DNA of 64,000 nucleotides from Bacteroidota bacterium (GTDB lineage Bacteria; Bacteroidota; Bacteroidia; Chitinophagales; Chitinophagaceae), in assembly GCA_018267955.1 (NCBI GenBank), contig JAFDXL010000008.1:124001-188000 (forward strand), in the 5' to 3' direction. The translations under genes and the position numbers were made by a program. Below the pieces are notes generated by a model, which was not told the DNA's origin, searched no databases, and worked only from the letters and a program-made list of their open reading frames with translations. Every line of letters begins with the position of its first letter. Positions within the stretch are counted from its first letter, which is position 1. Positions 8,601 through 62,227 of the stretch are shown one piece after another.

Positions 8601-9595
8601 CTATGCCAGCTGCGGGTAGTAATAGCCCGATCTGCACGGGTGATACGCTGAAGCTGCGAGCAACAGATATACTGGCAGGGTTAAATTATAATTGGTCGGG
8701 CCCCGGCTTCGGTTCGCAGCACAAGGATACAATAATAGCGAATACAACAATAACTGCAAGCGGGAATTATATCATTACCACCACTACCAAATATGGCTGT
8801 AGTAATAGTGATACAATAGCAGTATTAATAAAACCCTTACCTGCAAACATAGATGCGACATCTAACAGCCCGCTGTGCAGCGGTAAAGAACTGCAGTTTG
8901 CCATAAGCAAACCCACACCCGGAACGATATATAACTGGACTGGTCCGCTGAACTACAGCTCCGCCGACCCATCGCCGGTTATAAACAATGCGGCAACTAA
9001 CCAAAGCGGAATGTATTATGTAGCAGCCAACCTGGATGGGTGTATTAAAACTGATAGTGTAGTGGTGACTATCATCAAAACCCCGGATACACCTGCAGCA
9101 GGTAGTAATAGCCCATTGACTACGGGTGGGGTGCTGAAACTTTTTGTAAAAAATGTGGAGCAGGGCGTCAGCTATAACTGGTCTGGGCCTAATAGTTTTA
9201 ATTCCAATAGCGCGGCCGTAACAATCAATAGTGCGATACCCGCTATGAGTGGAACATATACAGTACTGGCCATCAATCAGGGCTGTAGCAGCTGGGATAC
9301 GGTAAATATAACCGTCAGCGATCCTATTGAAAGCAAAGACATTCCGTTTGTAATGTTTCCAAATCCTAACAATGGCAGCTTCCGGATAGTAGGCAGTTCA
9401 CTCACCAATGATAAAATACAATTAGCCGTGTTTGCAACCGATGGCAGGGTGATATACAGGTCTGAGATACAGCCGATAAGCAACAAGGTGGATGAACAGG
9501 TTACGATAACAGGTTTAGCTGCTGGAGTATACCGGTTAAAGATCAGAGCTGATGGTAAGCCCTCTGTAATCTCATTTACTGTTGGGGGGCGTTAA
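5681..9595 (+). CDS. Giant T9SS surface protein, tandem paralogue of the preceding gene
   Basis: This 1304-residue protein repeats the architecture of its upstream neighbour almost step for step. It has a signal peptide with KRT in the n-region, ending near SHA-NVF. Next come the pre-SBBP domain (FIANVGQLIDERN; PNIDWVLY; IDPR), seven propeller repeats at about 262-695, the LSD module (VQLSDISGSF), and five Ig-like domains near 811, 897, 981, 1061 and 1142. The sorting domain (VMFPNPNNGSF) closes the protein. The fifth Ig domain again lacks the leading Cys (SPLTTGG instead of SPxCxGD). Blade order, blade spacing and phrases such as SxALGPDNxVYFGG at blade 6 match between the two, so they look like an old tandem duplication. 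The ligand is unknown. Confidence 0.88.
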   Translation: MFKSLSKRTPLFVAQAIRFAMAFVLSITGIVAPSHANVFNGKSNGFIANVGQLIDERNHARNDVDFYLSNSSASVFIGSGQIQYVWKKPQPGIQGSERYKKIGDVEMFSMWVQLQGANVKAKPVTGDESDYYENYYLPHCNSKQAHSYSKIIYQDIYPNIDWVLYVDTSIPDGFKYDFVLHPGARVSDIKLLYKGAANLEKINGDVMITAAGGRITEHAPYTYEEKTGRKIISSFALNDNLLSFDVDGNDVVAVTTIIDPRISWVQRYKASPSIATCTASDTFAKPYLCGYTSASQFIVPLISPYQSHYGGGSSDCVISKYNPYGTSDIWTTYYGGEDADEIHAATCDFYDNLYITGLTASLTNISTYNSFQPTNGGATYSGGSHIDAFIAKFDGYGSLTWATYFGGVKVEIANAIAFDNFNSIYIGGVTTGTDSIATPGCFQSTPDIGFLARFNAANGYRSWGTYYNGVINTINVSNRNKIFIGGSTFALTGIATSGAFQTSFSGAAYDGFVAMFEPDGTRRWGTYYGGGGVDEVFGLTNDSLGNVFVGGATESTGSGLSTTGALYTSGFGTRGGMIGKLDSVGHLRWGSYYPGKVTSLALGPDNRVYFGGVTDYTTGIATANAYQSQYTYPLYATNLIAYDGFIGELDLDGKRLYGTYFGDGSIESSTFVNYNYGQWLVSYTIDSPGITLGYLMEFEGDTSVFIKYPYVDSILCAGGSLDVNYKVTKPFAAGNIFKVQLSDISGSFNSAVDIGTVTSSVAGIINCTIPAGITEGMGYKLRIVASAPADTFYNYNVPIRISHYHRPVAEAQLPICANLNLTLMDSNAAAAPADLIYEWINPNPLRSHGAFAHYIVNDIKLVDSGDYILVANNHGCISRDTVHVHITVAPPEPLVTGDTLLCTGDTLILTAHSAVDNVTFGWFKPDNSFINYDSVIIVPGISMHDSGLYRVAAIFDGCQSDPNYGQLVIVHPRPMPAAGSNSPICTGDTLKLRATDILAGLNYNWSGPGFGSQHKDTIIANTTITASGNYIITTTTKYGCSNSDTIAVLIKPLPANIDATSNSPLCSGKELQFAISKPTPGTIYNWTGPLNYSSADPSPVINNAATNQSGMYYVAANLDGCIKTDSVVVTIIKTPDTPAAGSNSPLTTGGVLKLFVKNVEQGVSYNWSGPNSFNSNSAAVTINSAIPAMSGTYTVLAINQGCSSWDTVNITVSDPIESKDIPFVMFPNPNNGSFRIVGSSLTNDKIQLAVFATDGRVIYRSEIQPISNKVDEQVTITGLAAGVYRLKIRADGKPSVISFTVGGR

Positions 9596-46343: not shown

Positions 46344-47504
46344 ATGAATAAAACAAAACTGGCATTGGCTGTAATAGCCATGTGGGGTATGCTTTTCGCA
46401 AGCAGCTGTAAAAAAGATAATGCAGTGCCTGCAGATACGAATACAGGTACATCTGCAACTGCCAATTCCACCCATACCCTCGTCGGGTTATTTAATATGG
46501 GAGATTACACAGCCGCCTCTAATCTTCAACTGCTGGATAGTACACTCAATGTTGCAAGCAATATTAATACCAGTTCTGCGGTAATGAATTTTCAGAGATG
46601 GAATATCAATGGTACCATCCGATATACCTACCAGTTATATGATCCAACTGCGAAATCCATTGCCGGTGTAGGATACATCCCGGGAAGCGCTGTATTATTA
46701 GATGAAAACCTTAAAGAGATAAAACGCTTCAGATTATTGCCATATGGTAGTAGAACTACTGCTGATATTGATGCTCTGGATGGCCATGATTTTATATTGC
46801 TTGATGATAACCATTATATAGCAATGACATATTATCAAAAAGCCGTAAGCAATATCGATAGCTCGTTGCATCCCGCAGCCGGGTGTACTGTTGTAGCACC
46901 GATCATCCAGGAGGTACAAAACGGAAGTGTTGTATGGGAATGGGATGCTACTGATCACCCTGAGTTTTATGCTAATAGCGTGGAAGCGAACGATTATACA
47001 AACACAACTAAGGCGCAGGATTATATGCATATGAATAGTATGTTTATTGATCCTAAGGATAATAACCTGGTATGTTCTTTCAGAAACCAAAACCAGATTG
47101 TTAAGGTCAATCGTAAGACAGGCAGTATAATTTGGAGGCTTGGTGGGAAAAATAGCGATTTTCCTATCACAGCAGACCAAAAATTCCTTCGCCAGCATGA
47201 TGCTACAATTAACAGTGAAGGACATATAATGATGATGGATAACGGAGATGCAACTGAAAGGCCTTATAGCAGGGTGGTAGAATTGGCAATAGACGAATCT
47301 GCTAAAACTATTTCCTCCTTTAAATCTTTGCAGTTGCCCTATAGTCTTTTCTGCCAGTACATGGGGTCTGTGCAGAAAACTGCAAATACTTATTTCATTG
47401 GTTGTGGTTCTGTGCCACGCATATTAGAGATCAATTTCAATAATGGTAGTGTAGTGGCTGATAAAACGCTTAGCAGTGCATCATATAGGGCCCTGCGGTA
47501 TTGA
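46344..47504 (+). CDS. Arylsulfotransferase-like lipoprotein
   Basis: This 386-residue protein has the lipobox FASSC followed by KKDN. The propeller-type ASST signature is clear: VQNGSVVWEWDATDHPEF, AQDYMHMNSMFIDPKDNNLV, FRNQNQIVKVNRKTGSIIWR, LGGKNSDFPI, FLRQHDATINSEGHIMMMDN. His in YMHMNS and RQHDA correspond to the conserved active-site His of the family, which moves sulfate between phenolic compounds without PAPS. As a lipoprotein it acts in the periplasm or on the surface. Substrate unknown; a purely structural role is possible. Confidence 0.87.
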   Translation: MNKTKLALAVIAMWGMLFASSCKKDNAVPADTNTGTSATANSTHTLVGLFNMGDYTAASNLQLLDSTLNVASNINTSSAVMNFQRWNINGTIRYTYQLYDPTAKSIAGVGYIPGSAVLLDENLKEIKRFRLLPYGSRTTADIDALDGHDFILLDDNHYIAMTYYQKAVSNIDSSLHPAAGCTVVAPIIQEVQNGSVVWEWDATDHPEFYANSVEANDYTNTTKAQDYMHMNSMFIDPKDNNLVCSFRNQNQIVKVNRKTGSIIWRLGGKNSDFPITADQKFLRQHDATINSEGHIMMMDNGDATERPYSRVVELAIDESAKTISSFKSLQLPYSLFCQYMGSVQKTANTYFIGCGSVPRILEINFNNGSVVADKTLSSASYRALRY

Positions 47505-47575: not shown

Positions 47576-49090
47576 TTAATTCTTTACTAACTTCCCCATC
47601 ATGTACTTAACCCCATCTTTATTGTATGCTGTGTAGTAATACATGCCCGGTACCCAGCTTTTTATATTAATAGTAATGGCAGGCATATCGCTGCTTATAT
47701 TGCACTCGTTCACTTTTTTTCCGGCCTGGTCTGTGAACACTATGTGCAACGTTTCCTGTTTTTTACCTTTAAACGATAGATTCACGTATTCTGACGCAGG
47801 GTTGGGGAACACGCGAATGTCTCCGGCGAATGAAACATTTTTTACCGAAACTTCTGTATAGTTAAATTTAAATAGTTCAGTGCCCACACCGCCACATTCC
47901 TGCGCACGGAAGTACAAGTCATTGCCAATTACGGTGAGCTCTTTGGGATCGCTGCTATTTGTTCCCGTGCATAGATCCATAACCTGTTTTGCACCATCTG
48001 TGGTATCATAAGACCATAACTCGTAACCGGTAGCCTGGTTGTATGCGCTGAAATATAACTTGCCGCCATACGGTGTTATCCATAATGGATCCTGGCTGCC
48101 GGTCGTTTTTATTTTTGGGGCTAAACCATAGTTACCTGTTGTTTCGTCGTAAGTAAAGAGGTAGTAATTGTTATCGTTGCTGTCCTTGGCATTGAAGTAT
48201 ATTTTGCCATTCATAGACGCGATAATAGTTTCTGAGCGGGATGGTATTCCGTCTCTGAATCCTCTTACGGCATCGGTAATGCGGGCAGGATTGTTTGTAC
48301 CATCATATACCCATAATTCCCGCCCTGCTGAATCTGCCGCGCTGAAGTACATCTTGCCGTTGATGACCGTTAAGTTTTGTGGCCATGAACCTGCCGGCCC
48401 GGCTTTAATATCTGCCAGTAATGATGTGTTTGCAAATACAGGGTCAAATTCAAATAGCTCATTATTGCCAATACCGCTATCGGCTGTAAAGTAGATTTTA
48501 TTGTTAAACACGGTAAGGTTACCATTCACACTGCTATCGGGGCCGGGGTTGATGTCCGTGAGCTGGTTAGCGGGTGTAGCTGCCACCGGGTCGTAAGACC
48601 AAAGTTCATAACCAATATTGCTATTGCGTGCGCAGAAGTATAATACACCGTTCAACGCAACATAATCATCAGGATCGCTTCCCTCGCTTCCTGTAACAAT
48701 ATCCTGCACCAAGGTTGGCATAGTAGCACCATTGAACACGTAAATTTCAGGGCCGGTTGTACCACTGTTACCGGTGAAATATAGCTTATTGTTGAGCACG
48801 ATTGTCGGGCGGTTAGAATATTGTTCAACAGCGCTGCCTGCAAGTGGGTTAAGATCCAGCACCAGCACCGGCTGATTTACTCCATCACATGTGTATAGCT
48901 CAAATCCATCTCCAATACCTTCATCTGCAAAAAAACAGATCTTTCCTCCGTTTGCTGCATTAAATGGTGTTAAGTATAAGGGATATGAACTTCCTACTTT
49001 GTTCAGATCAAATTTTTTTAGCCCGGGTGTTTGTGCCAATGCAAGATTCCCTATTGCCAGGAATAATAAAATAATAAAGCTAACTCTCAT
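47576..49090 (-). CDS. ELWxxDGT-repeat T9SS-secreted protein
   Basis: This 504-residue protein has a signal peptide ending NLALA before QTPGL. It carries six to seven repeats of about 48 residues with the pattern NGKLYFSA.....G.ELW.YDGT.....L..DI..G..GS.P..L: DGFELYTCDGVN, GPEIYVFNGAT, GYELWSYDPV, NNELFEFDPV, GRELWVYDGTN, GYELWSYDTTD. These repeats are thought to build a beta-propeller. The type A sorting domain (IRVFPNPASEYVNLSF; GMYYYTAYNKDGVKYMMGKL) ends it. Displayed on the surface or released; the ligand is unknown. Confidence 0.9.
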   Translation of the reverse strand: MRVSFIILLFLAIGNLALAQTPGLKKFDLNKVGSSYPLYLTPFNAANGGKICFFADEGIGDGFELYTCDGVNQPVLVLDLNPLAGSAVEQYSNRPTIVLNNKLYFTGNSGTTGPEIYVFNGATMPTLVQDIVTGSEGSDPDDYVALNGVLYFCARNSNIGYELWSYDPVAATPANQLTDINPGPDSSVNGNLTVFNNKIYFTADSGIGNNELFEFDPVFANTSLLADIKAGPAGSWPQNLTVINGKMYFSAADSAGRELWVYDGTNNPARITDAVRGFRDGIPSRSETIIASMNGKIYFNAKDSNDNNYYLFTYDETTGNYGLAPKIKTTGSQDPLWITPYGGKLYFSAYNQATGYELWSYDTTDGAKQVMDLCTGTNSSDPKELTVIGNDLYFRAQECGGVGTELFKFNYTEVSVKNVSFAGDIRVFPNPASEYVNLSFKGKKQETLHIVFTDQAGKKVNECNISSDMPAITINIKSWVPGMYYYTAYNKDGVKYMMGKLVKN

Positions 49091-50218: not shown

Positions 50219-53200
50219 ATGAAAAGGAACGCTTTTCTGATACCCATTATATTGAACTTATGTTTGTTTTTTGTCATTAACATAAGTTATGCAAGCCCTG
50301 AACCCGGTAAAGGCTTCCATTCATCTGTATCTTTTATTGAAAACAAGGGACAATTAATCGACCAGCATAATGTTAGCAGGAAAGATATTCAGTTTGCATT
50401 ACAACAAAATGGTCTGGGAATTTTTATAGGTAATGGAGAATTTCACTATCAATGGATGCAAACCCTATTACCGGCTGATGGAAAAATAAAGGTCGCGGCA
50501 AATGAAAAGATCACTGCAAAATATGCGCGTATAGATGTAAAATTGCTGGGAGCAAATAAAAATGCACAAGTAATAAAAGAGCAGAAGGCCGAAGATTATA
50601 GAAATTATTATTTGCCTCAATGCCCGGATGGTATTACAGCTGAGGCATATCAAAAGATAACGTACAAGAACATTTACCCCAATATTGATTGGGTGATGTA
50701 CATCAACTCTTCCAACACGCTTAAATACGACTTTATTGTTCATAAAGGAGCAAATCCATCGGTTATCCAATTGCAATACAGCGGAGCCACTGCTATGAAT
50801 CTTACTGCAAAAGGATCCTTAAAGATTAAAAGCTCACTAGGGTCTGTAGAAGAAGATGCACCATTGTGTTACCTGGAAGGTGGTAAACAGATATCATCGA
50901 AATATGAGTTAAACGGAAATGTACTGTCGTTTAAAATAGATCAATACGATGCATTGAACAATGACCTGATCATAGATCCCAGCCTGGACTGGGCAACTTA
51001 TTTTGGTGGTAACAATGACGATTTTGGCTATTCAGTTGCCACTGATACTAATGGTAATGCATATTTGGCCGGCCGAACGAACAGTACAACAGGTATTGCA
51101 ACTTCGGGTGCATACACTGATACATTAAACAACGGTAGTATCGATGCTTATATTGCTATGTATAACACCTCCGGTTCGCTACAGTGGGCTACTTATTATG
51201 GGGGAAGCAATACAGATATCTTCTTTTACCTGGCTACAGACACATTAGATCATGTTTATGCTGCGGGCCTAACAGCCAGTACATCTGCTATTGCATCCTC
51301 ATCAGGTGTTAGCCAGTCATCCTACGGCGGTGGTAATTGTGATGCCTATCTTGTAAAGTTTAATAAGAATGGTACAAGATCATGGGCCACTTATTTTGGC
51401 GGTACCGGCGACGAAAGCACCGCCTCCACTTTTGATGATTATATGGTAGGGGTTGCGTGGGATCATTTTACCAACACGGTTTATTTAGTTGGTAATACTG
51501 TTAGCACAGGATTAGGTACCATTTCCGGCCATACTTCCATAAGCGGTGGTGCAGATGCTTATATCACTCAGTTTTCGTCCAGTGGTACGGTGCAATGGTG
51601 TAGCTACTACGGCGGTACTGCTGAAGATAAGGCAATAAAAGTTGCCTGCGATGGTAATGGTTTCGCATATATAATCGGTAAAACACGTAGTTCGTCTGGT
51701 ATTGCCTACCCTAGCAGTAGCGTTGCACAAGGTACCTATGGTGGGAATGATGATGCTTTTATAGCTAAGTTCAACTCCACTGGTGGCGTACGATGGTGCA
51801 CCTACCTTGGTGGTTCGGCTTACGATATTGCACAAGGTGTAGGTACTGATATTTCCGGCAATGTATATGTTACAGGCACTACCCAAAGTTCAAATTTAAG
51901 TTACGGCAGCAATGTATTCCAGAGTGTCATCGCAGGTGGCGATGAGTCATTTCTTACAAAATATGATTCTTCGGGTGCACGTATCTGGTTTACTTATTTT
52001 GGAGGAACTCAGGCGGATCAAACCGCCGATATCGCCATTGATGCAACAGGCAATGTATGTTTTAGTGGCACTACTGCCAGCCTCGGATTGGCCACAGCAA
52101 ACGCAGCGTCTCAGGGAGCAATCACTGGGGGTAATACGGATGCATTTTTAGCTGTATTTAGTCCTTCCGGTTCACGCACCTATACTACTTATTATGGAGG
52201 GGCCAATGTAGATAACGCATTTGGTATAAGTTATAGCAGGCTGGGCGATTTGTTTATGGCAGGTTGTACCAGCAGCAGTAGCGGCATCGCCCATTATGCG
52301 AGCCAACCTTCAATAGGCGGTAACCAGGATGCATATTTATGTAAGTTTAAAGCAGATACCTCTGCTTTTATTGTAGTGCCCTTTAGCACGCTGTCATACT
52401 GCCAGGGCGATAGTATACACGTTCCTTATGGCGTAACTAATCCGTTTTTGTCTGGCAATACTTTCACACTCCAGCTATCTGATGCATCCGGTAGTTTTAC
52501 CACACCGGTTACGTTGGGCACGGTTAGCTCCAGTGCCGCAGGCATCATAAATGGCAGGATCCCGGTAAGCCAGTCAATTGGTACAGGCTATCGTATCAGA
52601 ATTGTTGGAAGCAATCCCGCTAATATTTCTTTCGATAATGGATCTAATATTTCTGTAAAGCTCAAGCCGGCAGCACCTACCTTTACAACCAATAGCCCTG
52701 TATGTAGCGGTAATACACTCACATTCTCAGCCTCGACCACTACATCAGGTAGCGGCATTACATATAGCTGGAAGGGTCCGAATAGTTTTACCAATAATTC
52801 ACAATCTACATTCGTTGCTAAAGCGCCTGTTAGTGCTACGGGGTATTACGCGGCAACAGTTACGTTTAATGGTTGTGCAGCAAAAGATAGCATATTGCTG
52901 ACTGTAAAAAGGACGCCGGATACCCCTGTTATTACAGGTAGCAGACTAGTGTGCACGGGTGATTCCATCCGGTTAAGCGCTGCAAGCGGACCTTCCGGAG
53001 TATCCTATGACTGGCGGGGGCCTTCTTCTTTCACAGCAACTACCAAGGATATCAAGATCGGCAATCTTACCACATCCAGTTCTGGATATTATGTTGCAAC
53101 GGCAACTCTAGGTACTTGTTCTTCTACGGATAGCGCAAACATTGTAGTGAAGCAATCGCTCACCCCAACATTGACGGTGAGCCCTAATCCAATTACTATC

Positions 53201-54004
53201 TGTATTAATGACACGGCTGTTTTTACCGCTGTTGGTACCAACGGTGGTAATAACCCAACATATCAATGGTATTCTAATGGTAATTTGATCAATAACAGCT
53301 TGCCATTGTTGGTAGATACTTTCGGTCAAAACGGAGATATTGTTCGCTGTATTTTCACGTCTGATGAGTTATGTTTAACTCGTCCTGCAGATACAGTCGA
53401 TATAACCTTAGTTAAGGTTCCCCCTGTTCCTCCGCAGGTTTCAATAACGGCAGATCCTGTAAAAGGTGGCCCGCCATGGTGTATCACCTTTAGGGCACAC
53501 CCTATATTTGGTGGCGCGCATCCTACGTATAAATGGTATAAAAATGGCATATTAATTCCCTTGCCTGGGCTTGGTGTTGACAGAGATACGGTGATCTTAT
53601 GTTATGATGATCCGCATTTTGCAATAGAACCCGGGGACATAATCAGCTGTTCTATTATCAGTGACCTGAGTTGTACCAATCCTAAAGAGGCATTTTCTAA
53701 TACTATTTCTATAGACTCTTTAACGGGAATTGGTAAGTTCAACCTGGCAGATCAGTTACAATTGTTCCCTAATCCTAATACAGGTGAATTTGTAATTAAA
53801 GGTGAATTGCCACAAGCAGGTGTATATCATGTTGATGTAATTAATAGCATTGGCCAAATTGTTTTCAACAGGGTAATGACTGCAGCTAACAAGCAGATCA
53901 GCGAAAAAATAACCTTACCTGATGCAAGCCCGGGGGTATATCTATTAAGGTTAAGATCCGGAGATGATATTGCTGTTTGGCGGGTGGTTGTAAATAGTCA
54001 ATAA
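50219..54004 (+). CDS. Giant T9SS surface protein: seven-repeat propeller head, mixed Ig stalk
   Basis: This 1261-residue protein has a signal peptide ending SYA before SPEPG. The pre-SBBP domain is at about 36-255 (FIENKGQLIDQHNVSRKDI; PNIDWVMYINSS; LIIDPS), then seven propeller repeats at about 257-715 (WATYFGGNNDDFGYSVATDT and so on), and the LSD module (LQLSDASGSF). Two standard Ig-like domains follow near 824 and 908, then two of another type with a Y.WY.NG core (PTYQWYSNG, PTYKWYKNG) near 990 and 1080. The sorting domain (LFPNPNTGEF) closes it. The stalk therefore differs from its relatives at 1600 and 5681. An intrinsic terminator follows. Confidence 0.88.
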   Translation: MKRNAFLIPIILNLCLFFVINISYASPEPGKGFHSSVSFIENKGQLIDQHNVSRKDIQFALQQNGLGIFIGNGEFHYQWMQTLLPADGKIKVAANEKITAKYARIDVKLLGANKNAQVIKEQKAEDYRNYYLPQCPDGITAEAYQKITYKNIYPNIDWVMYINSSNTLKYDFIVHKGANPSVIQLQYSGATAMNLTAKGSLKIKSSLGSVEEDAPLCYLEGGKQISSKYELNGNVLSFKIDQYDALNNDLIIDPSLDWATYFGGNNDDFGYSVATDTNGNAYLAGRTNSTTGIATSGAYTDTLNNGSIDAYIAMYNTSGSLQWATYYGGSNTDIFFYLATDTLDHVYAAGLTASTSAIASSSGVSQSSYGGGNCDAYLVKFNKNGTRSWATYFGGTGDESTASTFDDYMVGVAWDHFTNTVYLVGNTVSTGLGTISGHTSISGGADAYITQFSSSGTVQWCSYYGGTAEDKAIKVACDGNGFAYIIGKTRSSSGIAYPSSSVAQGTYGGNDDAFIAKFNSTGGVRWCTYLGGSAYDIAQGVGTDISGNVYVTGTTQSSNLSYGSNVFQSVIAGGDESFLTKYDSSGARIWFTYFGGTQADQTADIAIDATGNVCFSGTTASLGLATANAASQGAITGGNTDAFLAVFSPSGSRTYTTYYGGANVDNAFGISYSRLGDLFMAGCTSSSSGIAHYASQPSIGGNQDAYLCKFKADTSAFIVVPFSTLSYCQGDSIHVPYGVTNPFLSGNTFTLQLSDASGSFTTPVTLGTVSSSAAGIINGRIPVSQSIGTGYRIRIVGSNPANISFDNGSNISVKLKPAAPTFTTNSPVCSGNTLTFSASTTTSGSGITYSWKGPNSFTNNSQSTFVAKAPVSATGYYAATVTFNGCAAKDSILLTVKRTPDTPVITGSRLVCTGDSIRLSAASGPSGVSYDWRGPSSFTATTKDIKIGNLTTSSSGYYVATATLGTCSSTDSANIVVKQSLTPTLTVSPNPITICINDTAVFTAVGTNGGNNPTYQWYSNGNLINNSLPLLVDTFGQNGDIVRCIFTSDELCLTRPADTVDITLVKVPPVPPQVSITADPVKGGPPWCITFRAHPIFGGAHPTYKWYKNGILIPLPGLGVDRDTVILCYDDPHFAIEPGDIISCSIISDLSCTNPKEAFSNTISIDSLTGIGKFNLADQLQLFPNPNTGEFVIKGELPQAGVYHVDVINSIGQIVFNRVMTAANKQISEKITLPDASPGVYLLRLRSGDDIAVWRVVVNSQ

Positions 54005-54023
54005 GATCTTATATAATAAAGGC

Positions 54024-54048
54024 GCCGGCACATTGTGCCGGCTTTTTT
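54024..54048 (+). terminator. Strong terminator after the third propeller-headed gene
   Basis: GCCGGCAC and GTGCCGGC form an 8-bp GC stem with a 3-nt loop, followed by seven T. Confidence 0.9.
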
Positions 54049-54136
54049 TAGCACATTTTTATGCAGATAATTATATTTTATCTGTTGGAGTATTTAAGTT
54101 ATATTGTATTAGCGAATAAAGATGATTTTGAGTTAA

Positions 54137-56455
54137 GTGTTACGTAACCTGTTCATAGCCTTATTGTTTATTGTGCTGCCGTATTTAGGCAGTGCGCAGG
54201 GATACTATAACGTTACGCATACAAGCGGTAAGCGTATAATAGCAGGTGTTGAGGTAGAAGTGGTAGCAATAGATTCTCCCGGTGTTTATCCGGATCCTTC
54301 CTATTGTGTAGGCCCTTACTTTATTGGCACCACTATTGCGAGAAAAGCCCCGGTGACGAATGGATATGAATTTCGCTTTTCTGTGCCTGTACGCCAGGTT
54401 AGGTTCAAGGTCAGTTCATCAGATTACGGCGAAGAGCTCAGCACCTTTGTCAACGGAAGTTTTTTCCCACTCACAGCCGCTAATTTGTCTGCGCTTTCAG
54501 GCTGCGGTAATGGCGGGCACACTTATATCTCAAATGGTAAAATAGATTTTGATAGTGCAACACGGGATAACAGCACACAAATAACCATTGCCAGCAGCGG
54601 AATAAATTCTATTGATTTATATGACCTGATACAAAATGCAGGAAGCGTTTTTTCCTTTCAGTTTGTTTTTGACACAACCGTTTCAATAGTTAATTACACA
54701 GATACGATGTTGTGCGCAGGTGATAGTATTCATATTGCCTATAAGTTGACGGGTAGCTTTTTGCAGGGTAATACGTTTACTTTTCAGTTGTCGGATAAGA
54801 GCGGCAGCTTTGCTAACCCTACTGTTCTGGGAACAAAAGCAGATACTGCCAATGGCATGTTCGTAGGTATTGTTCCCTCAGGATTAACGTCAGGTGATGA
54901 ATACCGTATTCGGATTGTTTCATCTAAGCCCGGTTTGGTGTCAGAACCCAATGATAAAAAAATAGGTATTGGTAATCCTATTACAGTTAGGGCATACGCT
55001 TCCTCTCCGGTATGTTTGCATGATACATTCATTTTAGGAGCTACCGTTTTTTCTCATTACTCAGATTTTTTCTGGAATGGGCCCGGAGTACCTGCCATTA
55101 ACTTCGCTTCAGAGCACATAAAAATTCCCGATGCTGTTTTTGCAGATTCAGGTATGTATTATGTAGAGGCCAGGGATTACGGTTGTAAAAGCTTTGACTC
55201 AGTATATCTTGTTGTCAGGGACAATCCTATAAAGTCAATCGGTACATCTTCAGTAAGCTTTTGTACGGGAGATACCATCAGGCTTTATAGCAAAGTAGAT
55301 ACGGGCAATGTTCAAAATATTTGGACGACCCCATTAGGTACCCAATATTTTTCTAACTCCATTTTATTGCCGGCAGCCAAACTTTCAGATAGCGGTGCAT
55401 ACACTTTACTGACAATTGCAGATGGGTGTATGGGTCGTGATACTGTAGATATTGAAGTGAAAAAAACGCCATCGCCGGCGTTGTTTGCCGGTAATGTGTG
55501 CACAGGAGATACGTTACGTATATCTGCCGGATATATACCCGGTGCAACCTACGAATGGAGCGGCCCGGGAAGTATTCGATTTACTGCAAGGGATACAGCT
55601 TTTATTAATGCTATCACAAGCTTAGGCGGTTCTTATAAAGTAAAGGTCACAGCCAATGGATGTGAGGCTTTAGATTCTGTTAATGCATTGGTAAAAGCAA
55701 GACCGTATAAGCCCAACGGCAGTGTAAATACTCCAGTTTGTGAATCCAGTGATCTCCACTTATCTGCATTTGATACAACAGTGGCTATACGTTACTATTG
55801 GACTACGCCATCGAATGATATATTATACGGTTCAGATAATTACATCAGGAAAATAAGCGTGGCTGAATCAGGAACTTACGTTTTTGTTGCAGAGAAGGAT
55901 GGATGCATGGCTATGGATAGTTTTGATGTGCAGGTCATGCACACACCAATCCCACCCCAGGTAAGCTACAATGATCCCATAAAGCAGGGTGAGGAGCTTA
56001 TACTTACTATTAAGGATCCCGAACCAGGTGTTGACTACAAATGGATAGGGCCAAATAACTTTTATAGCACTGCGTATAGCCCGCATATAAAGAATATAAC
56101 TACACTCAACTCAGGTAGTTATATCGTAGATGCCCGGTTGGGGATTTGCAAGTCTTCGTCTAAGATCTTTGTAGATATTCTTTCTTCGCTAGATACAGAT
56201 ATGGTGGTACTGTATCCAAATCCTTGTAACGGAAATTTTTGGGTGAAAGCAATAGCAAAGGCCGATCAGAAAATCCTGGTGCATATTGTTAATGCCGCAG
56301 GTCAGCTTGTTTATACCCAATGGCTGCAAACACAGAATAAGCATATAGAACAGGCATTCGAACTTAGGGATGCGTTATCAAGTGGTGTTAATAACTTCCG
56401 TATCAGGCTCGATGGTAAGACGTACACAATACCCTTTGTGGTAGATAGATATTAA
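54137..56455 (+). CDS. T9SS surface protein with unknown head and five Ig-like domains, GTG start
   Basis: This 772-residue protein starts at GTG (54137), giving MLRNLFIALLFIVLPYLGSA before QGYYN. The head (about 20-180) is a beta-rich domain, YNVTHTSGKRIIAGVEVEVV onward to FVFDTTVSIV, that I do not recognise. The LSD module follows (FQLSDKSGSF, about 185-285). Five Ig-like domains start near 290, 375, 452, 532 and 612; the last has DPIKQGE in place of the first Cys. The sorting domain reads VVLYPNPCNGNF. It stops 6 bp before the next giant gene, so the two are co-transcribed. Confidence 0.85.
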   Translation: MLRNLFIALLFIVLPYLGSAQGYYNVTHTSGKRIIAGVEVEVVAIDSPGVYPDPSYCVGPYFIGTTIARKAPVTNGYEFRFSVPVRQVRFKVSSSDYGEELSTFVNGSFFPLTAANLSALSGCGNGGHTYISNGKIDFDSATRDNSTQITIASSGINSIDLYDLIQNAGSVFSFQFVFDTTVSIVNYTDTMLCAGDSIHIAYKLTGSFLQGNTFTFQLSDKSGSFANPTVLGTKADTANGMFVGIVPSGLTSGDEYRIRIVSSKPGLVSEPNDKKIGIGNPITVRAYASSPVCLHDTFILGATVFSHYSDFFWNGPGVPAINFASEHIKIPDAVFADSGMYYVEARDYGCKSFDSVYLVVRDNPIKSIGTSSVSFCTGDTIRLYSKVDTGNVQNIWTTPLGTQYFSNSILLPAAKLSDSGAYTLLTIADGCMGRDTVDIEVKKTPSPALFAGNVCTGDTLRISAGYIPGATYEWSGPGSIRFTARDTAFINAITSLGGSYKVKVTANGCEALDSVNALVKARPYKPNGSVNTPVCESSDLHLSAFDTTVAIRYYWTTPSNDILYGSDNYIRKISVAESGTYVFVAEKDGCMAMDSFDVQVMHTPIPPQVSYNDPIKQGEELILTIKDPEPGVDYKWIGPNNFYSTAYSPHIKNITTLNSGSYIVDARLGICKSSSKIFVDILSSLDTDMVVLYPNPCNGNFWVKAIAKADQKILVHIVNAAGQLVYTQWLQTQNKHIEQAFELRDALSSGVNNFRIRLDGKTYTIPFVVDRY

Positions 56456-56461
56456 TGTAGT

Positions 56462-58918
56462 ATGAGGAGAAGCGTATTGATATTGTTTTTAATGACGTTT
56501 GCTATTTGTAGTAATGGGCAAAATCTTATTTCCAACGGTGGGTTTGAAAATTATAGTGCTTGCCCCACAGCAACTTCCATGTTTGGCGGATATTGTACAG
56601 GTTGGTCATCTTATACAAATGGCACGCCGGATTATTATAACAGCTGCGCAGCATCCGCTACTGGGGTTTCCACACCTGCAAATATCAATGGCACCCAGGC
56701 TGCAGCAAATGGCAATGCCTATTGCGGCATTGTTGATTATGCAGGCAATGTTGATTTTAAAGAATATATCGAAACAGGTATAAGCACATTACAGGCAGGT
56801 GCTACTTACACAGTATCTATGTATGTGTCTTTGGCAGATAATGCGGGCTTTGCTTCAAATGGATTAGGTATGTTCTTTTTTAAGAACGGGCCTGCTTCAA
56901 TAGCTAGTACTAATAAACTTAATACCACTCCACAGGTAAGTTTTTCCGCTTACGGACCGTTGACCAACAAATCAGGCTGGACGAAATTAGAAGGAAGTTT
57001 TGTCGCTGATTCTGCTTACGATCATGTAGTTATCGGTGGATTTAAAGATAACAGCAGTATACAGATAACGAATATGCCATCGGGTACATTGGGTTTATCA
57101 TATTATTACATCGATTCTGTTATGATAAAGGCTGCCGATACAGTCAGCTTTATTGTTATGGATACAACACTTTGCGCAGGAGATAAAGTTAATATAGATT
57201 ACACAGTTAATGCAGCTGTTGCCTTCAATAGCTCCAATACTTTTACTTTACAGCTTTCAGATAATTTGGGCGCTTTTACTTCTCCTGTTAGCATAGGTAC
57301 TGCCTCCGCTACATCCTCCGGAACAATACAGGCTACAATTCCGGTTACTACAGTTACCGGAGGATTATACAGAATGAGAATAGTATCCTCTTCACCTTAT
57401 TATGTATCTGCTATCAGTGATGTAAGCATTGGAATTGGGGGCGGGAAACCACAGCCTAACTTGCATATTACCAGCCCTGTATGCGAACGCGATACTTTTA
57501 CATTAAGTGTAACTGCACCGGGACCGCTGACAGACGCTATTTGGAATGGCCCGGGCCTCAGCAATTCGCATGCAGCCTCTATTACAGTTTTTCATGCAAA
57601 AACTGCTAATGCAGGGATATATACAGTAGATGTTTTTAACTATGGTTGTGAAGCACATGCAAGTGGTAGTTTACAGGTAATAAGTAAGCCCGCCAGGCCA
57701 ATAGGTACAAGTAATAGCCCTGTCTGTAGTGGTAGTACATTGCAGCTTAATGGTACCGGAGCAGGTACCTCGTGGGCCTGGAAAGACGCATTAGGTAATA
57801 TTTATAGTACCAAAGACACTACGATACACCATATTTTAGCAGCAGACTCCGGATTGTATATATTAACTACATTTCAAAATGGATGCTCGGCAAGTGATAC
57901 TGTGCATGTCTTTGTAAAGGAGACACCTATACCCCGACTGTTTACAAACAATCCCTGTGCAGGGGATACGCTGTTTGTAGCAAGCCAATACAAAGATAGC
58001 GGCGCAATATTCCAATGGAATGGTCCTTCAGGTTATACATCCGCACAAAAAATAGTTACCATACCCGGGGTAGGGCAGTCATCTGCAGGTAGCTATTCAG
58101 TAAGCATTACAGGCAGTAATGGATGTGTTGGCATAGATAGCATACAGGCAGTTGTAAAAGACTTGCCACCATCAACCACCATTACAGGCAATATTATTTT
58201 GTGTGAGCAGGATACATTGGTTTTAAAGGCTGCTAATACAGCTCCCGGTGTGTCGTATCATTGGTACGGCCCGCATGGCACCAATATTTCAGACAATACT
58301 ATTATCATTCCAGGTGTAACAAATGGAGCAAGCGGCATTTATTATGTAGAAGCTAACCTCGATAATTGCATCAGAAAAGATAGTACAAGCGTCACTGTGA
58401 ATCACACGCCTGAGCAGCCTGTGGTTGCAGGAGATGCCGAGCTGCAGGCAGGTGAAAGCTTACACCTTTTTGTATCGAATGTAGAATCGGGTACAACATA
58501 TCATTGGAGTGGTCCTCATAACTTTACAGCGTCGGGTACAGAGGTAGCTATAGAAAATATAGGCCGCGACCAGGAGGGAACTTATATTGTAAATGCCACT
58601 GACGGCAACTGCAGCTCTTCTGCAATAACGCTCGTTAAAATAAACGAAGCGGTGAATAACACCGGTTTGCAAATTTTCCCCAACGCAAATGATGGTGATT
58701 TTTTCATCAAATGCACAACGAAATACGATAATAAGATCCAGGTAGTGCTACGCAACTCAACTGGGCAGGTTGTATTTCGGCAAGACTTCTTAACCATTAA
58801 CAATAGCCTGCTTCAAAATATCCGGTTAAGAGGGCGGTTAGCAAGCGGCACTTATATGATTACTGTAATTGTCGACGGGGTCAAATTATCTAAAATTTTA
58901 TCGATAAACCGGATGTAA
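56462..58918 (+). CDS. T9SS surface protein with jelly-roll-like head and five Ig-like domains
   Basis: This 818-residue protein has a signal peptide ending CSNG before QNLIS. The head (about 20-225) begins NLISNGGFENYSACPTATSM, has GYCTGWSSYTNGTPDYYN and GNAYCGIVDY, and ends with a VMIKA strand. This is the layout of the carbohydrate-binding-like jelly-roll in secreted Bacteroidota proteins. The LSD module (LQLSDNLGAF) follows, then five Ig-like domains near 338, 419, 497, 578 and 659; the last lacks the first Cys (ELQAGES). The sorting motif is FPNANDGDF instead of FPNPN.G.F. It is second in an operon with the gene ending at 56455. Confidence 0.85.
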   Translation: MRRSVLILFLMTFAICSNGQNLISNGGFENYSACPTATSMFGGYCTGWSSYTNGTPDYYNSCAASATGVSTPANINGTQAAANGNAYCGIVDYAGNVDFKEYIETGISTLQAGATYTVSMYVSLADNAGFASNGLGMFFFKNGPASIASTNKLNTTPQVSFSAYGPLTNKSGWTKLEGSFVADSAYDHVVIGGFKDNSSIQITNMPSGTLGLSYYYIDSVMIKAADTVSFIVMDTTLCAGDKVNIDYTVNAAVAFNSSNTFTLQLSDNLGAFTSPVSIGTASATSSGTIQATIPVTTVTGGLYRMRIVSSSPYYVSAISDVSIGIGGGKPQPNLHITSPVCERDTFTLSVTAPGPLTDAIWNGPGLSNSHAASITVFHAKTANAGIYTVDVFNYGCEAHASGSLQVISKPARPIGTSNSPVCSGSTLQLNGTGAGTSWAWKDALGNIYSTKDTTIHHILAADSGLYILTTFQNGCSASDTVHVFVKETPIPRLFTNNPCAGDTLFVASQYKDSGAIFQWNGPSGYTSAQKIVTIPGVGQSSAGSYSVSITGSNGCVGIDSIQAVVKDLPPSTTITGNIILCEQDTLVLKAANTAPGVSYHWYGPHGTNISDNTIIIPGVTNGASGIYYVEANLDNCIRKDSTSVTVNHTPEQPVVAGDAELQAGESLHLFVSNVESGTTYHWSGPHNFTASGTEVAIENIGRDQEGTYIVNATDGNCSSSAITLVKINEAVNNTGLQIFPNANDGDFFIKCTTKYDNKIQVVLRNSTGQVVFRQDFLTINNSLLQNIRLRGRLASGTYMITVIVDGVKLSKILSINRM

Positions 58919-59027
58919 ACACTGGTTCTTTCGTTTGCAATTGTAATTTATTAGTTGCGAATTAAAATCCAATTAAGGTGGATGTAAGTCACCGTTTTGC
59001 GCGGTAATCCATCGTATCTTTAAAAGG

Positions 59028-61391
59028 ATGCAAAGGATATTGAAAATAGGGTTATTGTCGCTCGTACTAATGTGGGTAACAGCAGCAAGATCCTATGCGG
59101 CTGGTATTTCTATATTGCAGCCGTTCACTGATACTTTACTTTGCAAGGGTGGTAGTTTTTATCTGTATGCAAATACCGTATTCAGTTATTACGACGATAG
59201 CAATATTTTTTATGCAGAATTGTCTGATGCCAGTGGTAGCTTTTCGTCGCCTACAACAATAGGCATTACAATGGGGCAGATAGGTAATAGCATCTATTGT
59301 ACTATTCCTGCATCAGTATCTCCCGGCACAGGATACAGGATTCGCATCAGGGCTACGATGCCTGCAGAGATCAGTTCTGATAATGGTAATAATATAAGAG
59401 TGTCTCCATATCCGGCATTTTCATTACATACAAACGCCCCGGTTTGCGAGGGTACGGCGTTAAACGTAAATGCCACCTTGAACAACACCTCTTTGAGTCC
59501 CGTAAGCTTTAAGTGGACTGGCCCGAATAGCTTTTCATCAAACAGCCAGAGTACCGGGCCTAATCCGGTTGGGCTGAATGGCGGCGGCTATTATGTATGC
59601 ACTGCAACCTATTACGGATGTGCTGTTAAGGATAGTATTATGGCGCAGGTTGTTACTGCACCAACATCTATGAGAATTAGAAACAATAGTCCCGTATGTG
59701 TTGGCGACGAGCTGGATATCCTCACAGATTGCAGTATGTGCACCTCCCCGGGCATTATCTGCACATATACCATGAATACGCCGTCTGGTACGGTTAATAA
59801 TAATAATCTTATTGTTAAGAAGGCAACTGCCGCTGCTGCAGGCAAATATGTTATTGCAATTTCTGTGGCCGGGTGCACTATTAAAGATTCTATTGTAGCA
59901 GAAGTTCGGCAACGTCCTGATTCACCATGGCATATTGTGAATAGTCCTGTCTGCGAAGGAGATACCTTGAAATTGATGGCAGGTACAAATATTAAAGGCG
60001 CGTCATTCAACTGGTCTGGACCTAATGGCTTCTATGCTAATTCAGATTCTGTAAATATTCCCCGTATCACTAAAGCAGCGGCAGGGGTATATAGAGTGTA
60101 TGCTTTTTTCCAGGGTTGCCCCTCAGCAACAGCAACAGATAGCGTAGTTGTAGGTACGGTTCTTGAAAGACCCGACATCGCAGGAAAGGCAACTGTATGT
60201 AAAGGCGACTCGATCGTTTTGAACGCTAAGGGCGCTAATACACAATACGGAAGCTTTGAATGGAATTTCAATGGAGGGCATCTTTATTCCGGAAGCCATC
60301 TATCTATTACCAAAGCTCAATTAATAAACTCGGGATACTATATCGTAATGCAGAAGTATCAGGGATGTACATCACCTACCGATAGCTTTTATGTATCCAT
60401 ACCAGATATACCCAAACCGGTTGTTACAATAAACAATCCGGTATGCTGGGGGCAAAAGCTAACTATGCATATAGATGATGTGCAGGGGGCATTGTATCAA
60501 TGGATCGGCCCTGCTGTTCATGTTAATGCACAAAATGCGACAATTAACAATGTCGACTTTTCAGATTCTGGCAGGTACACCGCTTTGGTGTCTATTGGAG
60601 GATGTGTAGATAGTACGATAGGGCATGTGAGGGTTTTACCCTTACCACAAATATTAAATCTTACCGCAAATGATTCAGTATGTGAAGGTGAGAAGCTAAT
60701 GCTGTCTGCAGAAAGTGATGTGCCATCTGCTACTTTCGTTTGGCATGGCCCTAACGGATATATAGCCACCGGTAGTCGTGCTGATACTGCTATCGATAAG
60801 TCCGGGGCTGGTTATTATTATGTACAGGCATCATCCGGCAAATGCGCTTCATTGCCTGATAGTGTGCTTGTTATGGTCAAGGATTCACCGGAACCTGTAA
60901 CTATAGAAGCTAATAATAAACTTAGCTATGGACAGACCTTATTTCTTTCATGTGAATCAAACACGCCCAATGTAACTTATAGCTGGGAAGGGCCTCAGGG
61001 ATTTGCATCGCAGCATCAGAAAGATACCATCTATAGAATGACTCCTGGTATGGGTGGCAAATACACTGCAATAGCATTGGCACCTAATAGTTGTACCAGC
61101 AAGTCTGATATTGAAGTAGTCGTGGATCCAATTTCAAGGTCAAGATACTTGCTTTACCCTAATCCTAATTCCGGTAAGTTTACAGTTAAAGCAGAATTGC
61201 AGCGTGAGGCGCATGTATATTACCAGGTACTCACAGGCAGTGGTCAGGTAATTCTAAGTGGCGATGTTTATAGCTATAAAAATGAGTTCAACCTTGCGAT
61301 AGATATGGGTGATGTTTCCAACGGGGAATACCTACTGCATTTTTATAGTGCTGCAGGAAATGACGCCGTTAAGATTTCTGTTGCGCGTTAA
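59028..61391 (+). CDS. Headless T9SS surface protein with seven Ig-like domains
   Basis: This 787-residue protein has a signal peptide ending ARSYA before AGISI. There is no separate head: the mature protein begins directly with the LSD module (DTLLCKGGSF; AELSDASGSFSS). Seven Ig-like domains follow, near 137, 222, 306, 388, 470, 550 and 630. The second has extra Cys (LTDCSMCTSPGIICTY) and the last lacks the first Cys (NKLSYGQ). The sorting domain is LLYPNPNSGKF. Domain count is higher than in its five relatives, and the stalk itself may be the functional part. It is convergent with the transglutaminase-like gene, 11 bp between stops. Confidence 0.85.
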   Translation: MQRILKIGLLSLVLMWVTAARSYAAGISILQPFTDTLLCKGGSFYLYANTVFSYYDDSNIFYAELSDASGSFSSPTTIGITMGQIGNSIYCTIPASVSPGTGYRIRIRATMPAEISSDNGNNIRVSPYPAFSLHTNAPVCEGTALNVNATLNNTSLSPVSFKWTGPNSFSSNSQSTGPNPVGLNGGGYYVCTATYYGCAVKDSIMAQVVTAPTSMRIRNNSPVCVGDELDILTDCSMCTSPGIICTYTMNTPSGTVNNNNLIVKKATAAAAGKYVIAISVAGCTIKDSIVAEVRQRPDSPWHIVNSPVCEGDTLKLMAGTNIKGASFNWSGPNGFYANSDSVNIPRITKAAAGVYRVYAFFQGCPSATATDSVVVGTVLERPDIAGKATVCKGDSIVLNAKGANTQYGSFEWNFNGGHLYSGSHLSITKAQLINSGYYIVMQKYQGCTSPTDSFYVSIPDIPKPVVTINNPVCWGQKLTMHIDDVQGALYQWIGPAVHVNAQNATINNVDFSDSGRYTALVSIGGCVDSTIGHVRVLPLPQILNLTANDSVCEGEKLMLSAESDVPSATFVWHGPNGYIATGSRADTAIDKSGAGYYYVQASSGKCASLPDSVLVMVKDSPEPVTIEANNKLSYGQTLFLSCESNTPNVTYSWEGPQGFASQHQKDTIYRMTPGMGGKYTAIALAPNSCTSKSDIEVVVDPISRSRYLLYPNPNSGKFTVKAELQREAHVYYQVLTGSGQVILSGDVYSYKNEFNLAIDMGDVSNGEYLLHFYSAAGNDAVKISVAR

Positions 61392-61402: not shown

Positions 61403-62227
61403 TTACGCCGCTTTTTTGTTTCTGTTCCAGATCCTTTGAGGAAGTATTCCGCTGTATTTGTCCAAGGTAAAATTTAGTTGAATGGCTTTTACAAATGTGA
61501 ATACGAAAAGGAAAAAACAAATAAGCATATAGTACTTATTTATGCCCTGAATTTGATAGTAAAGACAGAATTGATCTACCTTCTGTTTACCCCAATATTT
61601 ACTGGCAAGATTGTAAATGCCTCTTGAAAACGCTCCAAATTTATCCCAGTTACTATGTGTCCATCCCTGCTGATAATTATAATCAGGTACATAGTTGGCA
61701 GGCAAATGGTATTTATAGTAAGAATTCCAGTTTTTGGCAACATCATTGATGTCGCTCATATTGCCATTACTGTCTTTAAAATTGTGATTAAATAAAGGAT
61801 CTACTAACAGCAACTTTCCGTTATGCATCACAACCACACTCATGTGTCCGCCACGTTTGCCATTTACTGTTACTTGTACAACTTTACTTTCATACCCCAT
61901 TGCGCTTAGTAGCCTAATAAAAAAAGTAGAGTATGCTCCGCAAGCTCCTTTACCAAAATAGTAATTCTGAAAAGAGTTGGTTGTAAAGTATTTCTTGAAA
62001 GATGTAAAATCACTATTACTGAATACTTCCGTACTTGGAGACTGTAACACCGTAGAATAATGCAACGCAGTATCCATAAGTGTATTTATATCGCGTGTTT
62101 TGCACTGCGCATAAATATGTTCTTTAAGATGTACCAGAACTTCTCTCTCATAGCTCCAGTCGTTAAAGAAATTTAACGTGAGCATTAGTAAGAAGCCCGA
62201 AACAAATGCGTAAGCAAATCGAAGCAT
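61403..62227 (-). CDS. Membrane-anchored transglutaminase-like protein
   Basis: This 274-residue protein has an N-terminal membrane helix (residues 3-20) and a C-terminal one (about 232-252), with the domain between on one side of the membrane. The papain-like triad is in place: Cys96 in GKGACGAYSTFFIRLLSAMG, His128 in RGGHMSVVVMHNG and Asp143 in LLLVDPLFN. Relatives cleave or cross-link peptides or process surface polymers. The adjacent gene encodes a surface stalk protein, but a functional link is only suggested by position. A promoter candidate lies about 55 bp upstream. Confidence 0.88.
   Translation of the reverse strand: MLRFAYAFVSGFLLMLTLNFFNDWSYEREVLVHLKEHIYAQCKTRDINTLMDTALHYSTVLQSPSTEVFSNSDFTSFKKYFTTNSFQNYYFGKGACGAYSTFFIRLLSAMGYESKVVQVTVNGKRGGHMSVVVMHNGKLLLVDPLFNHNFKDSNGNMSDINDVAKNWNSYYKYHLPANYVPDYNYQQGWTHSNWDKFGAFSRGIYNLASKYWGKQKVDQFCLYYQIQGINKYYMLICFFLFVFTFVKAIQLNFTLDKYSGILPQRIWNRNKKAA

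Follow-up and report, generated by a model that had tools for sequence, protein, structure and literature searches.

The closest described relatives of the proteins discussed here are T9SS type A cargo proteins with Ig_7 domains (PF18962/TIGR04183 and PF19081), with which they share both the sorting domain and the Ig_7 domains of the stalk. What the present family adds to this known cargo is an unnamed module between head and stalk, together with an expansion in one genus, where it carries five head families. In Porphyromonas gingivalis, part-swapping among the gingipain genes rgpA, kgp and hagA is described (PMC5266723). The likeness to gingipains and HagA lies in differing N-terminal parts over near-identical downstream DNA, which we find in 20 of 884 same-genome gene pairs in the genus and in none in the genome of our window, the window being the whole stretch of 64,000 nucleotides that was analysed. 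Unlike in rgpA, kgp and hagA, the shared part is here an Ig-like stalk, and the heads give propeller, lectin-like and CBM-like matches; the six window proteins have no Pfam match to the cleaved adhesin (CAD) domain or DUF2436 at E up to 0.1. Periscope Proteins (PMC9704523) are surface proteins with a rod-like repeat stalk of varying length. Stalk length is variable here too, as compared between species with one genome each, but the stalk segments, in contrast to those of Periscope Proteins, are only 26-34% mutually identical within the two window proteins measured. Among the literature titles of a limited search, none concerned the window family, and none dealt with head exchange in T9SS proteins other than those of P. 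gingivalis.

The original prediction had singled out six proteins, with reading frames starting at 1600, 5681, 50219, 54137, 56462 and 59028, as sharing one order of domains, and all six do follow it: a head (lacking in one), a module of about 100 residues, four to seven Ig-like domains and a T9SS type A sorting domain. The features are as follows.

1600..5571, plus strand: gene 1, 1323 aa; DUF7948 and SBBP propeller head, module, 5 Ig-like domains, type A sorting domain
3769-4083, plus strand: module of gene 1, profile match
5681..9595, plus strand: gene 2, 1304 aa; DUF7948 and SBBP propeller head, module, 5 Ig-like domains, type A sorting domain
7787-8101, plus strand: module of gene 2, profile match
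47576..49090, minus strand: left neighbour, a 504-aa T9SS type A protein with homologues in array loci L062, L114, L093, L088 and L059 and in the sister locus L048
50219..54004, plus strand: gene 3, 1261 aa; DUF7948 and SBBP propeller head, module, 4 Ig-like domains, type A sorting domain
52361-52675, plus strand: module of gene 3, profile match
54137..56455, plus strand: gene 4, 772 aa; unnamed head, module, 5 Ig-like domains, type A sorting domain
54137..54679, plus strand: head of gene 4, beta-rich as modelled by AlphaFold and without Pfam match; it belongs to family UNK, which has 28 of the 155 genus ORFs
54680-54991, plus strand: module of gene 4, profile match, included with the head in the AlphaFold model
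56462..58918, plus strand: gene 5, 818 aa; CBM_4_9-like head (below cut-off), module, 5 Ig-like domains, type A sorting domain
56462..57145, plus strand: head of gene 5, one of 37 JR heads in the set of 155 genus ORFs
57146-57451, plus strand: module of gene 5, profile match
59028..61391, plus strand: gene 6, 787 aa; headless, module from residue 27, 7 Ig-like domains, type A sorting domain
59106-59423, plus strand: module of gene 6, profile match
61403..62227, minus strand: right neighbour, a 274-aa protein with sub-threshold transglutaminase/papain-fold matches, whose homologue adjoins the array in L062

As had also been stated, the last four genes are consecutive on one strand, with intergenic gaps of 132, 6 and 109 bases. 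Each of the six proteins passes at least one of the two curated cut-offs for the type A sorting domain, namely that of PF18962 (27 bits) at 1600, 5681, 50219 and 59028, and that of TIGR04183 (23 bits) at 1600, 5681, 50219, 54137 and 56462. In the same genome, sprA (TIGR04189) scores 2609.9 bits, and the N-termini of the window proteins are hydrophobic as judged by eye. The propeller heads expected in three proteins are confirmed by DUF7948 and SBBP repeats above Pfam cut-offs; the head at 54137 was rightly called unrecognised; and 59028 is indeed headless, because its module starts at residue 27. A jelly-roll-like head had been proposed for 56462 and is plausible, its CBM_4_9 match having a low E-value (8.3e-5) but a score below the cut-off (23.4 against 25.9 bits). 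What did not hold is the claim that only the head differs, since the number of Ig-like domains varies between stalks (5, 5, 4, 5, 5 and 7 in genes 1 to 6, by our own count from motif spacing). What is more, complete genes in the genus have 91 to 1005 residues after the module, so that stalk length is not constant, and stalk identity in two profiled window pairs is 24-53% in bins of 50 residues.

The module occurs once in each window protein, and a second profile search agrees on its boundaries within 3 bases. When each module was held out and scored with a model made from the other five proteins, genes 1 to 6 gave 113.9, 135.5, 108.7, 99.9, 85.4 and 79.2 bits, against a best reported score of 9.3 bits among 500 residue shuffles per protein; in none of the six, then, is the module absent or at chance level, a doubt that had been raised at the outset. 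It had been described as nameless, and in the window it has no Pfam match above cut-off. At E up to 0.1, weak profile similarity exists to Kre9/KNH (PF10342; 7 of 25 rows) and to GEVED (PF20009; 5 of 25), the scores shown lying below cut-off: the best of them is 21.0 against 24.6 bits for Kre9_KNH and 19.8 against 24.4 bits for GEVED (the 56462 module), 24 of the 25 rows giving E-values only. The profile search across Bacteroidota that had been suggested shows the module to be widespread, also in other architectures and with up to six copies per protein. All 15 members of the expanded genus, which appears to lie near Flavipsychrobacter and Taibaiella, have it in 6-22 copies per genome; elsewhere it is present in 9 of 21 other members of the family (1-3 copies) and 14 of 23 others in the order (1-12 copies). 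The module is neither confined to the window locus nor specific to the head-stalk family and, as an unnamed, widespread neck domain, is worth a family model of its own.

Grouped by head, the 155 module ORFs collected from 14 of the 15 genus genomes comprise PROP 49, JR 37, UNK 28, LAMG 24, H4 3 and none 14, that is, five head families or no head, the families being blastp clusters at E under 1e-6 covering half of the shorter head. The set is incomplete, in that G001 is omitted, 197 module matches were counted in the 15 genomes, and further JR genes stand outside it. By sequence, the JR head has no match among known structures, and the UNK head with its module has two chance-like ones (best E 0.048). 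The AlphaFold model of the latter (mean pLDDT 83.9, pTM 0.69) returned generic beta-sandwich matches only, 14 of them at E up to 0.001 and mostly antibody Fv pairs at rmsd 14.7 or more; the one noteworthy local match, at E 3.3e-3 to a module that binds porphyran (rmsd 4.4; TM 0.57 by target length), was dismissed as too weak. In the window's genome, heads of three families are also found on module-less proteins with a type B sorting domain. Our guess, from frame length, is that type B versions of JR and UNK proteins exist in other genomes as well; they are confirmed in G000 only, with one G005 protein assigned by eye on its tail.

Does the module belong to the stalk or to the head? Complete frames number 142 of the 155, and 122 of these, having at least 260 residues after the module, entered the nearest-neighbour and paired tests. 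The nearest neighbour bears another head in 17 cases for the module, 26 for the first Ig-like domain, 36 for the antepenultimate, 37 for the last and 40 for the sorting domain; the paired test of module versus sorting domain gives 7 versus 30 (p 2e-4), and the module tree needs 27 head-label changes versus 89 in shuffles. The module travels mainly with the head, and this co-inheritance led us to reject it as a piece of a constant stalk. The starred branches of the tree are compatible with a single origin per head. That said, such co-inheritance of module and head would also fit whole-gene duplication followed by fast divergence of the heads under diversifying selection, with stalks conserved and parts never exchanged.

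The DNA itself bears on this alternative. In the 20 sharing pairs, module or stalk DNA reaches 85% identity or more in windows of 60 codons. Several are neighbours in one locus with one head family, as duplication and divergence would have it. However, the heads belong to different families in 7 of the 20, in the sense that no blastp link of the above kind joins them, which leaves room for a distant common fold, and are 27-57% identical within one family in the other 13. In these 13, fourfold sites match at 257/678 (38%) in the heads and 867/1315 (66%) in the shared stretch, whereas 12 hand-picked orthologue pairs give 1781/2446 (73%) and 2198/3118 (70%), respectively. Applied to heads, the 85% test is passed by 1 of 187 same-head pairs; one same-head pair, L078/L080, shares a portion of the head too (98% in the best window). 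In G004, furthermore, a UNK and a PROP gene on a single contig are alike over their last 250 residues (88% in DNA, versus 50% in the module), and in AU tests each part rejects the grouping of the other (p 1e-36, 5e-7 and 0.004); an in-frame stop interrupts the head region of the UNK gene, which may be broken. All told, we hold duplication with divergence alone to be unlikely. The break in G002 falls at the border of head and module, with module and stalk 93-99% identical in DNA under heads that are 51% identical; here the AU test gives a weak result for the heads (p 0.031) and one short of significance for the module part (p 0.107). To judge by these comparisons of DNA, heads and stalks have indeed been re-paired in the genus.

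Metagenome bins that mix strains or hold chimeric contigs could also make one stalk appear under several heads. JR heads do lie near contig ends, at least 12 of 61 within 1.2 kb versus 1.33 expected (a hand-collected count with rounded contig numbers, the 61 being matches with E under 1e-60 and 14 weaker ones being excluded), and contigs have exact suffixes of 127 and 141 bases in common, lengths that we take to be typical assembler k-mers. Seven of the 20 sharing pairs include a gene that is cut off, 4 by a contig end and 3 by the end of the examined stretch. Nevertheless, 16 of the 20 involve no contig end, 7 lie on the one contig of G004, and a strain mixture would itself imply different heads on one stalk in the population, so that we see an assembly artefact as quite unlikely. 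Re-pairing may, conversely, be a reason why such genes break assemblies.

In the explanation that we consider probable, the family is T9SS type A cargo that most likely binds ligands while displayed at the cell surface; one genus has expanded it strongly, and recombination between stalk regions provides it with new pairings. Each protein has its head, sometimes absent, at the N-terminus, then a conserved Ig/FnIII-like neck (the module), an Ig-like stalk that varies in length and, at the C-terminus, the sorting domain. New pairings would result when paralogues, whether dispersed or in tandem, recombine through their homologous stalk-coding regions, by gene conversion or by unequal crossing-over; the breaks would fall within the stalk or where head meets module, leaving younger stalk DNA common to old, divergent heads. 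The architecture, the expansion, the sharing of stalks by different heads and the sprA gene are observed; surface display, ligand binding and homologous recombination as the mechanism are what we infer here.

The window locus itself would change by gain, loss and reordering of whole genes. No window pair passes the 85% test, on which grounds we reject active exchange among the window genes, and none of the 20 sharing pairs is from the window's genome. Five of the six heads recur in the sister genome, ordered alike within each array; there the fifth gene is truncated, and the examined stretch after it holds no headless gene. Since the sister keeps these heads and the window's genome has no sharing pair, the locus is best read as old array turnover; its heads and copies look old and stable. 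The original prediction, that this locus builds new binders by head exchange on a constant stalk, is thus upheld for the modular family, the exchangeable stalks and, in relatives, the sharing at DNA level; it finds no support for the window locus, the stalk is not constant, and the module mainly follows the head. Unchanged heads in close relatives had been named as evidence against exchange, and at short range they do count against it. In gene 1, the early stalk has bins of only 53-65% protein identity to its sister orthologue, yet a search for a donor among the 155 genes returned that very orthologue as best match.

All this could also mean that the pairings are ancient and that stalk similarity merely homogenises by concerted evolution, serving no diversity of heads. 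The unchanged heads in the sister would agree with such old shuffling, as would the old stalks in the two profiled window pairs and the grouping of gene 3, with support, among 11 propeller genes from across the genus; the near-identical module and stalk in G002, with its break at the border, looks instead like a new pairing. We regard old shuffling, which is compatible with our main explanation, as a possibility short of an even chance.

If recombination between stalk regions is indeed at work, it would suggest a counterpart of gingipain part-swapping in little-studied, mostly metagenome-derived Bacteroidota, with a testable anatomy of head, neck, stalk and export signal. It also opens the question of whether ligand-binding diversity arises by re-pairing ready-made heads rather than by mutating them. 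Going further, one may tentatively picture a combinatorial surface-recognition system, in which neck and stalk DNA would serve as a recombination platform and several heads would compete for the same stalks in a population, although we think this rather doubtful. In G006 two contigs, and in G013 three, lead from different heads into the same module DNA. Possible donors are headed fragments that lack a sorting domain, namely L234 (head and module only) and the sister genome's fifth gene in its truncated form.

The six open reading frames of the original prediction, all on the forward strand and starting at window positions 1600, 5681, 50219, 54137, 56462 and 59028 (genes 1 to 6), were present with their parts in the claimed order, namely a head, a module of about 100 residues, an Ig-like stalk and a terminal sorting domain. 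Three of the six open with DUF7948 and SBBP propeller repeats above the Pfam cut-offs, the head of gene 5 resembles CBM_4_9 at a score under the cut-off, that of gene 4 has no match in Pfam, and gene 6 is headless, its module starting at residue 27. All six have an Ig_7 match above cut-off, and each passes one or both of two curated cut-offs for the T9SS type A sorting domain. The Ig-like domains, counted from motif spacing, number 5, 5, 4, 5, 5 and 7 in genes 1 to 6. The proposed module is likewise real: a profile built from five window modules recovered the sixth at 79-136 bits in 6/6 trials, as against a best reported shuffle score of 9.3 bits (500 shuffles per window protein).

Within the genus, blastp clustering sorts 155 module open reading frames from 14 of 15 genomes into five head families: propeller (PROP, 49), jelly-roll-like (JR, 37), UNK (28), laminin-G-like (LAMG, 24) and H4 (3), with 14 headless. 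The head label requires 27 changes along the module tree, compared to a shuffle mean of 89 and a minimum possible of 5. Quick trees of the 142 complete genes call for 29 changes with the module, 36 with the first Ig, 42 with the last Ig and 41 with the sorting domain. Of these genes, 122 have 260 or more residues beyond the module; here the nearest neighbour by module carries another head in 17 cases, that by first Ig in 26, by the two late Igs in 36 and 37, and by sorting domain in 40 (tested pairwise against the module, p 0.06 for the first Ig, 0.001 and 3e-4 for the late Igs, 2e-4 for the sorting domain). Among neighbours at least 70% identical, heads differ for 0/55 modules and 2/54 first Igs, and for 10/60, 12/71 and 7/55 in the three distal segments. 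Since head mismatch is low for the module and higher for the distal segments, the module goes mainly with the head, forming a neck, and the mobile part is the distal stalk.

What is more, 20 of 884 same-genome pairs share a module or stalk stretch of at least 60 codons at 85% DNA identity or more, the heads being of different families in 7 pairs and 27-57% identical in 13; a contig end affects four of the 20, and in three further pairs a gene is cut off by the limits of the fetched stretch. The same test applied to heads picked out 1 of 187 same-head pairs, itself among the 13. One could argue that heads simply evolve fast. However, this alone does not account for the gap at fourfold sites, where the 13 same-family pairs agree at 257/678 in the heads and 867/1315 in the shared stretches, while in orthologues (12 hand-picked pairs) agreement is nearly equal, at 1781/2446 and 2198/3118.

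Three genomes illustrate such stalk sharing. In G004 (one contig), an UNK and a PROP gene are 91% identical in protein and 88% in DNA over their last 250 residues, but their modules are just 40% and 50% identical, respectively. The same UNK gene, which has an in-frame stop within its head region, shares 82% protein identity in the module and 67% in the tail with its relative in G007, and the module and tail trees each reject the other's groups. In G005, UNK and JR genes are 99-100% DNA-identical across 150 codons of the stalk (33/33, 32/32 and 32/32 at fourfold sites); their modules share 52% protein identity, and a contig end cuts one of the two genes. In G002, two JR genes, both cut by contig ends, are 93-99% DNA-identical from the module onward and 48-78% in head bins, with topology tests that are weak (p 0.031) or non-significant (p 0.107).

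Contig ends show a related pattern. In G006, two contigs terminate in one exact 127-base stretch of module DNA, and the cut proteins share 66% identity overall, with 50-60% in the outer head. In G013, a pair of contigs have 141 identical terminal bases, the final 60 of which are also present on a third, and the cut proteins are 58-69% identical. Strong JR heads lie less than 1.2 kb from a contig end in at least 12 of 61 cases, with 1.33 expected. Such forks fit several heads entering one stalk, in one genome or a strain mixture. Homologous recombination between stalk-coding regions, which would re-pair heads with stalks, is the likeliest mechanism because the break points vary and fall in homologous sequence. 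The nearest precedent comes from P. gingivalis, in which rgpA, kgp and hagA have repeat sequences in common (PMC5266723).

Surface display is suggested by the sorting domain together with a sprA gene in the window's genome, and ligand binding by the head matches. Of the LAMG heads, 3/3 scanned lie above the cut-off of the ConA/laminin-G-like PF13385. Three head families also occur on module-less proteins of the window's genome with a type B sorting domain.

Heads in other settings
C10: UNK head on PKD domains, type B sorting domain; window's genome, without module
C6: PROP head on PKD domains, type B sorting domain; window's genome, without module
C2: JR head, type B sorting domain; window's genome, without module
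L233: JR head joined straight to a sorting domain (tail judged by eye)
L240 and L244: JR head and module, type B-like tails (judged by eye)

As partners differ by cargo, type A needing PorV and type B PorP/SprF (PMC10202324), heads have apparently crossed between the two export routes. Separately, locus L234 (4790-5839, reverse strand) holds a JR head and module with a stop codon directly after the module; this fragment, which lacks both stalk and sorting domain, lies downstream of a frame with stalk similarity.

As for the window locus itself, the expectation that heads would differ in close relatives was not borne out for genes 1-5: the sister genome G010 has their orthologues with the same heads at 89-93% protein identity, one contig carrying genes 1-2 in their window order and another genes 3-5. 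The headless gene was not seen in the fetched stretch. Namely, DNA similarity (matches of at least 300 bases) ends at window position 58436, the fifth orthologue (L048:14307-16352) has lost its 3' end and, at 682 residues compared to 818, continues into sequence unrelated to the window gene, and the rest of that stretch contains no further module gene (9 of G010's 13 module matches listed); with four matches unlisted, a headless gene may lie elsewhere in G010. Homologues of both array neighbours flank five genes in G008 (PROP, UNK, JR, JR, none), and the order is JR, UNK, PROP in G002, G007 and G009 and PROP, none in G011 and G012. Given these differing orders and contents, arrays change as whole genes are gained, lost or reordered. 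The window stalks are old, those of two profiled pairs being 24-53% identical. Three local observations may be added.

4084-4623, forward strand: first 180 residues after the gene 1 module, 53-65% identical in protein to the sister orthologue (rest of stalk 90-100%, module 83-97%), with no better donor among the 155 genes
20592-23567, forward strand: 991-residue protein that has a sorting domain and matches M36 metallopeptidase below threshold
46344-47504, forward strand: Arylsulfotransferase family protein close to the array

A by-product of the analysis is an unnamed domain, the module, for which no Pfam family scores above its cut-off in the six window proteins; weak similarity to Kre9_KNH was seen in 7/25 and to GEVED in 5/25 diverse module rows. 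The AlphaFold model of the gene 4 head and module is beta-rich (mean pLDDT 83.9), and a fold search with it returned chiefly generic Ig-like pairs. The module, with one copy in each window protein and ten in the whole window genome, is not restricted to this locus: it was found in 38/59 genomes searched (the window's own counted), i.e. 15/15 of the genus (6-22 copies apiece), 9/21 from the rest of the family (1-3) and 14/23 from the rest of the order (1-12). A head-plus-module profile matched 19/148 phylum-sample genomes, again counting the window's own, at E up to 1e-5, and a pattern scan across titled genomes yielded at least 498 relatives among 590 stretches examined, 80 being kept. Titles of the latter include Bacteroidales, Flavobacteriales, Cytophagaceae, Chitinophagales and Sphingobacteriales, with one to six module repeats per protein; partners in nine scanned relatives include NHL repeats, PA14, GEVED and a sub-threshold reelin-like domain. 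Of the titled matches listed, the one nearest to gene 4 comes from 'Bacteroidetes bacterium 43-93', at 93% identity, and further ones are labelled Flavipsychrobacter and Taibaiella. Contigs titled Azovibrio restrictus or Candidatus Competibacteraceae (L148, L186, L159) bear module genes otherwise from Bacteroidota, and the bins or titles behind them are probably wrong. Finally, a protein of about 1000 residues with three modules at near-constant spacing (about 254, 543 and 742) recurs in L151, L156, L159, L172, L181, L189, L190, L196, L201, L206 and L212, the L181 and L212 copies being truncated on their 5' side; for L172, the copy that was scanned, the sole Pfam match is a sub-threshold one to a sorting domain.
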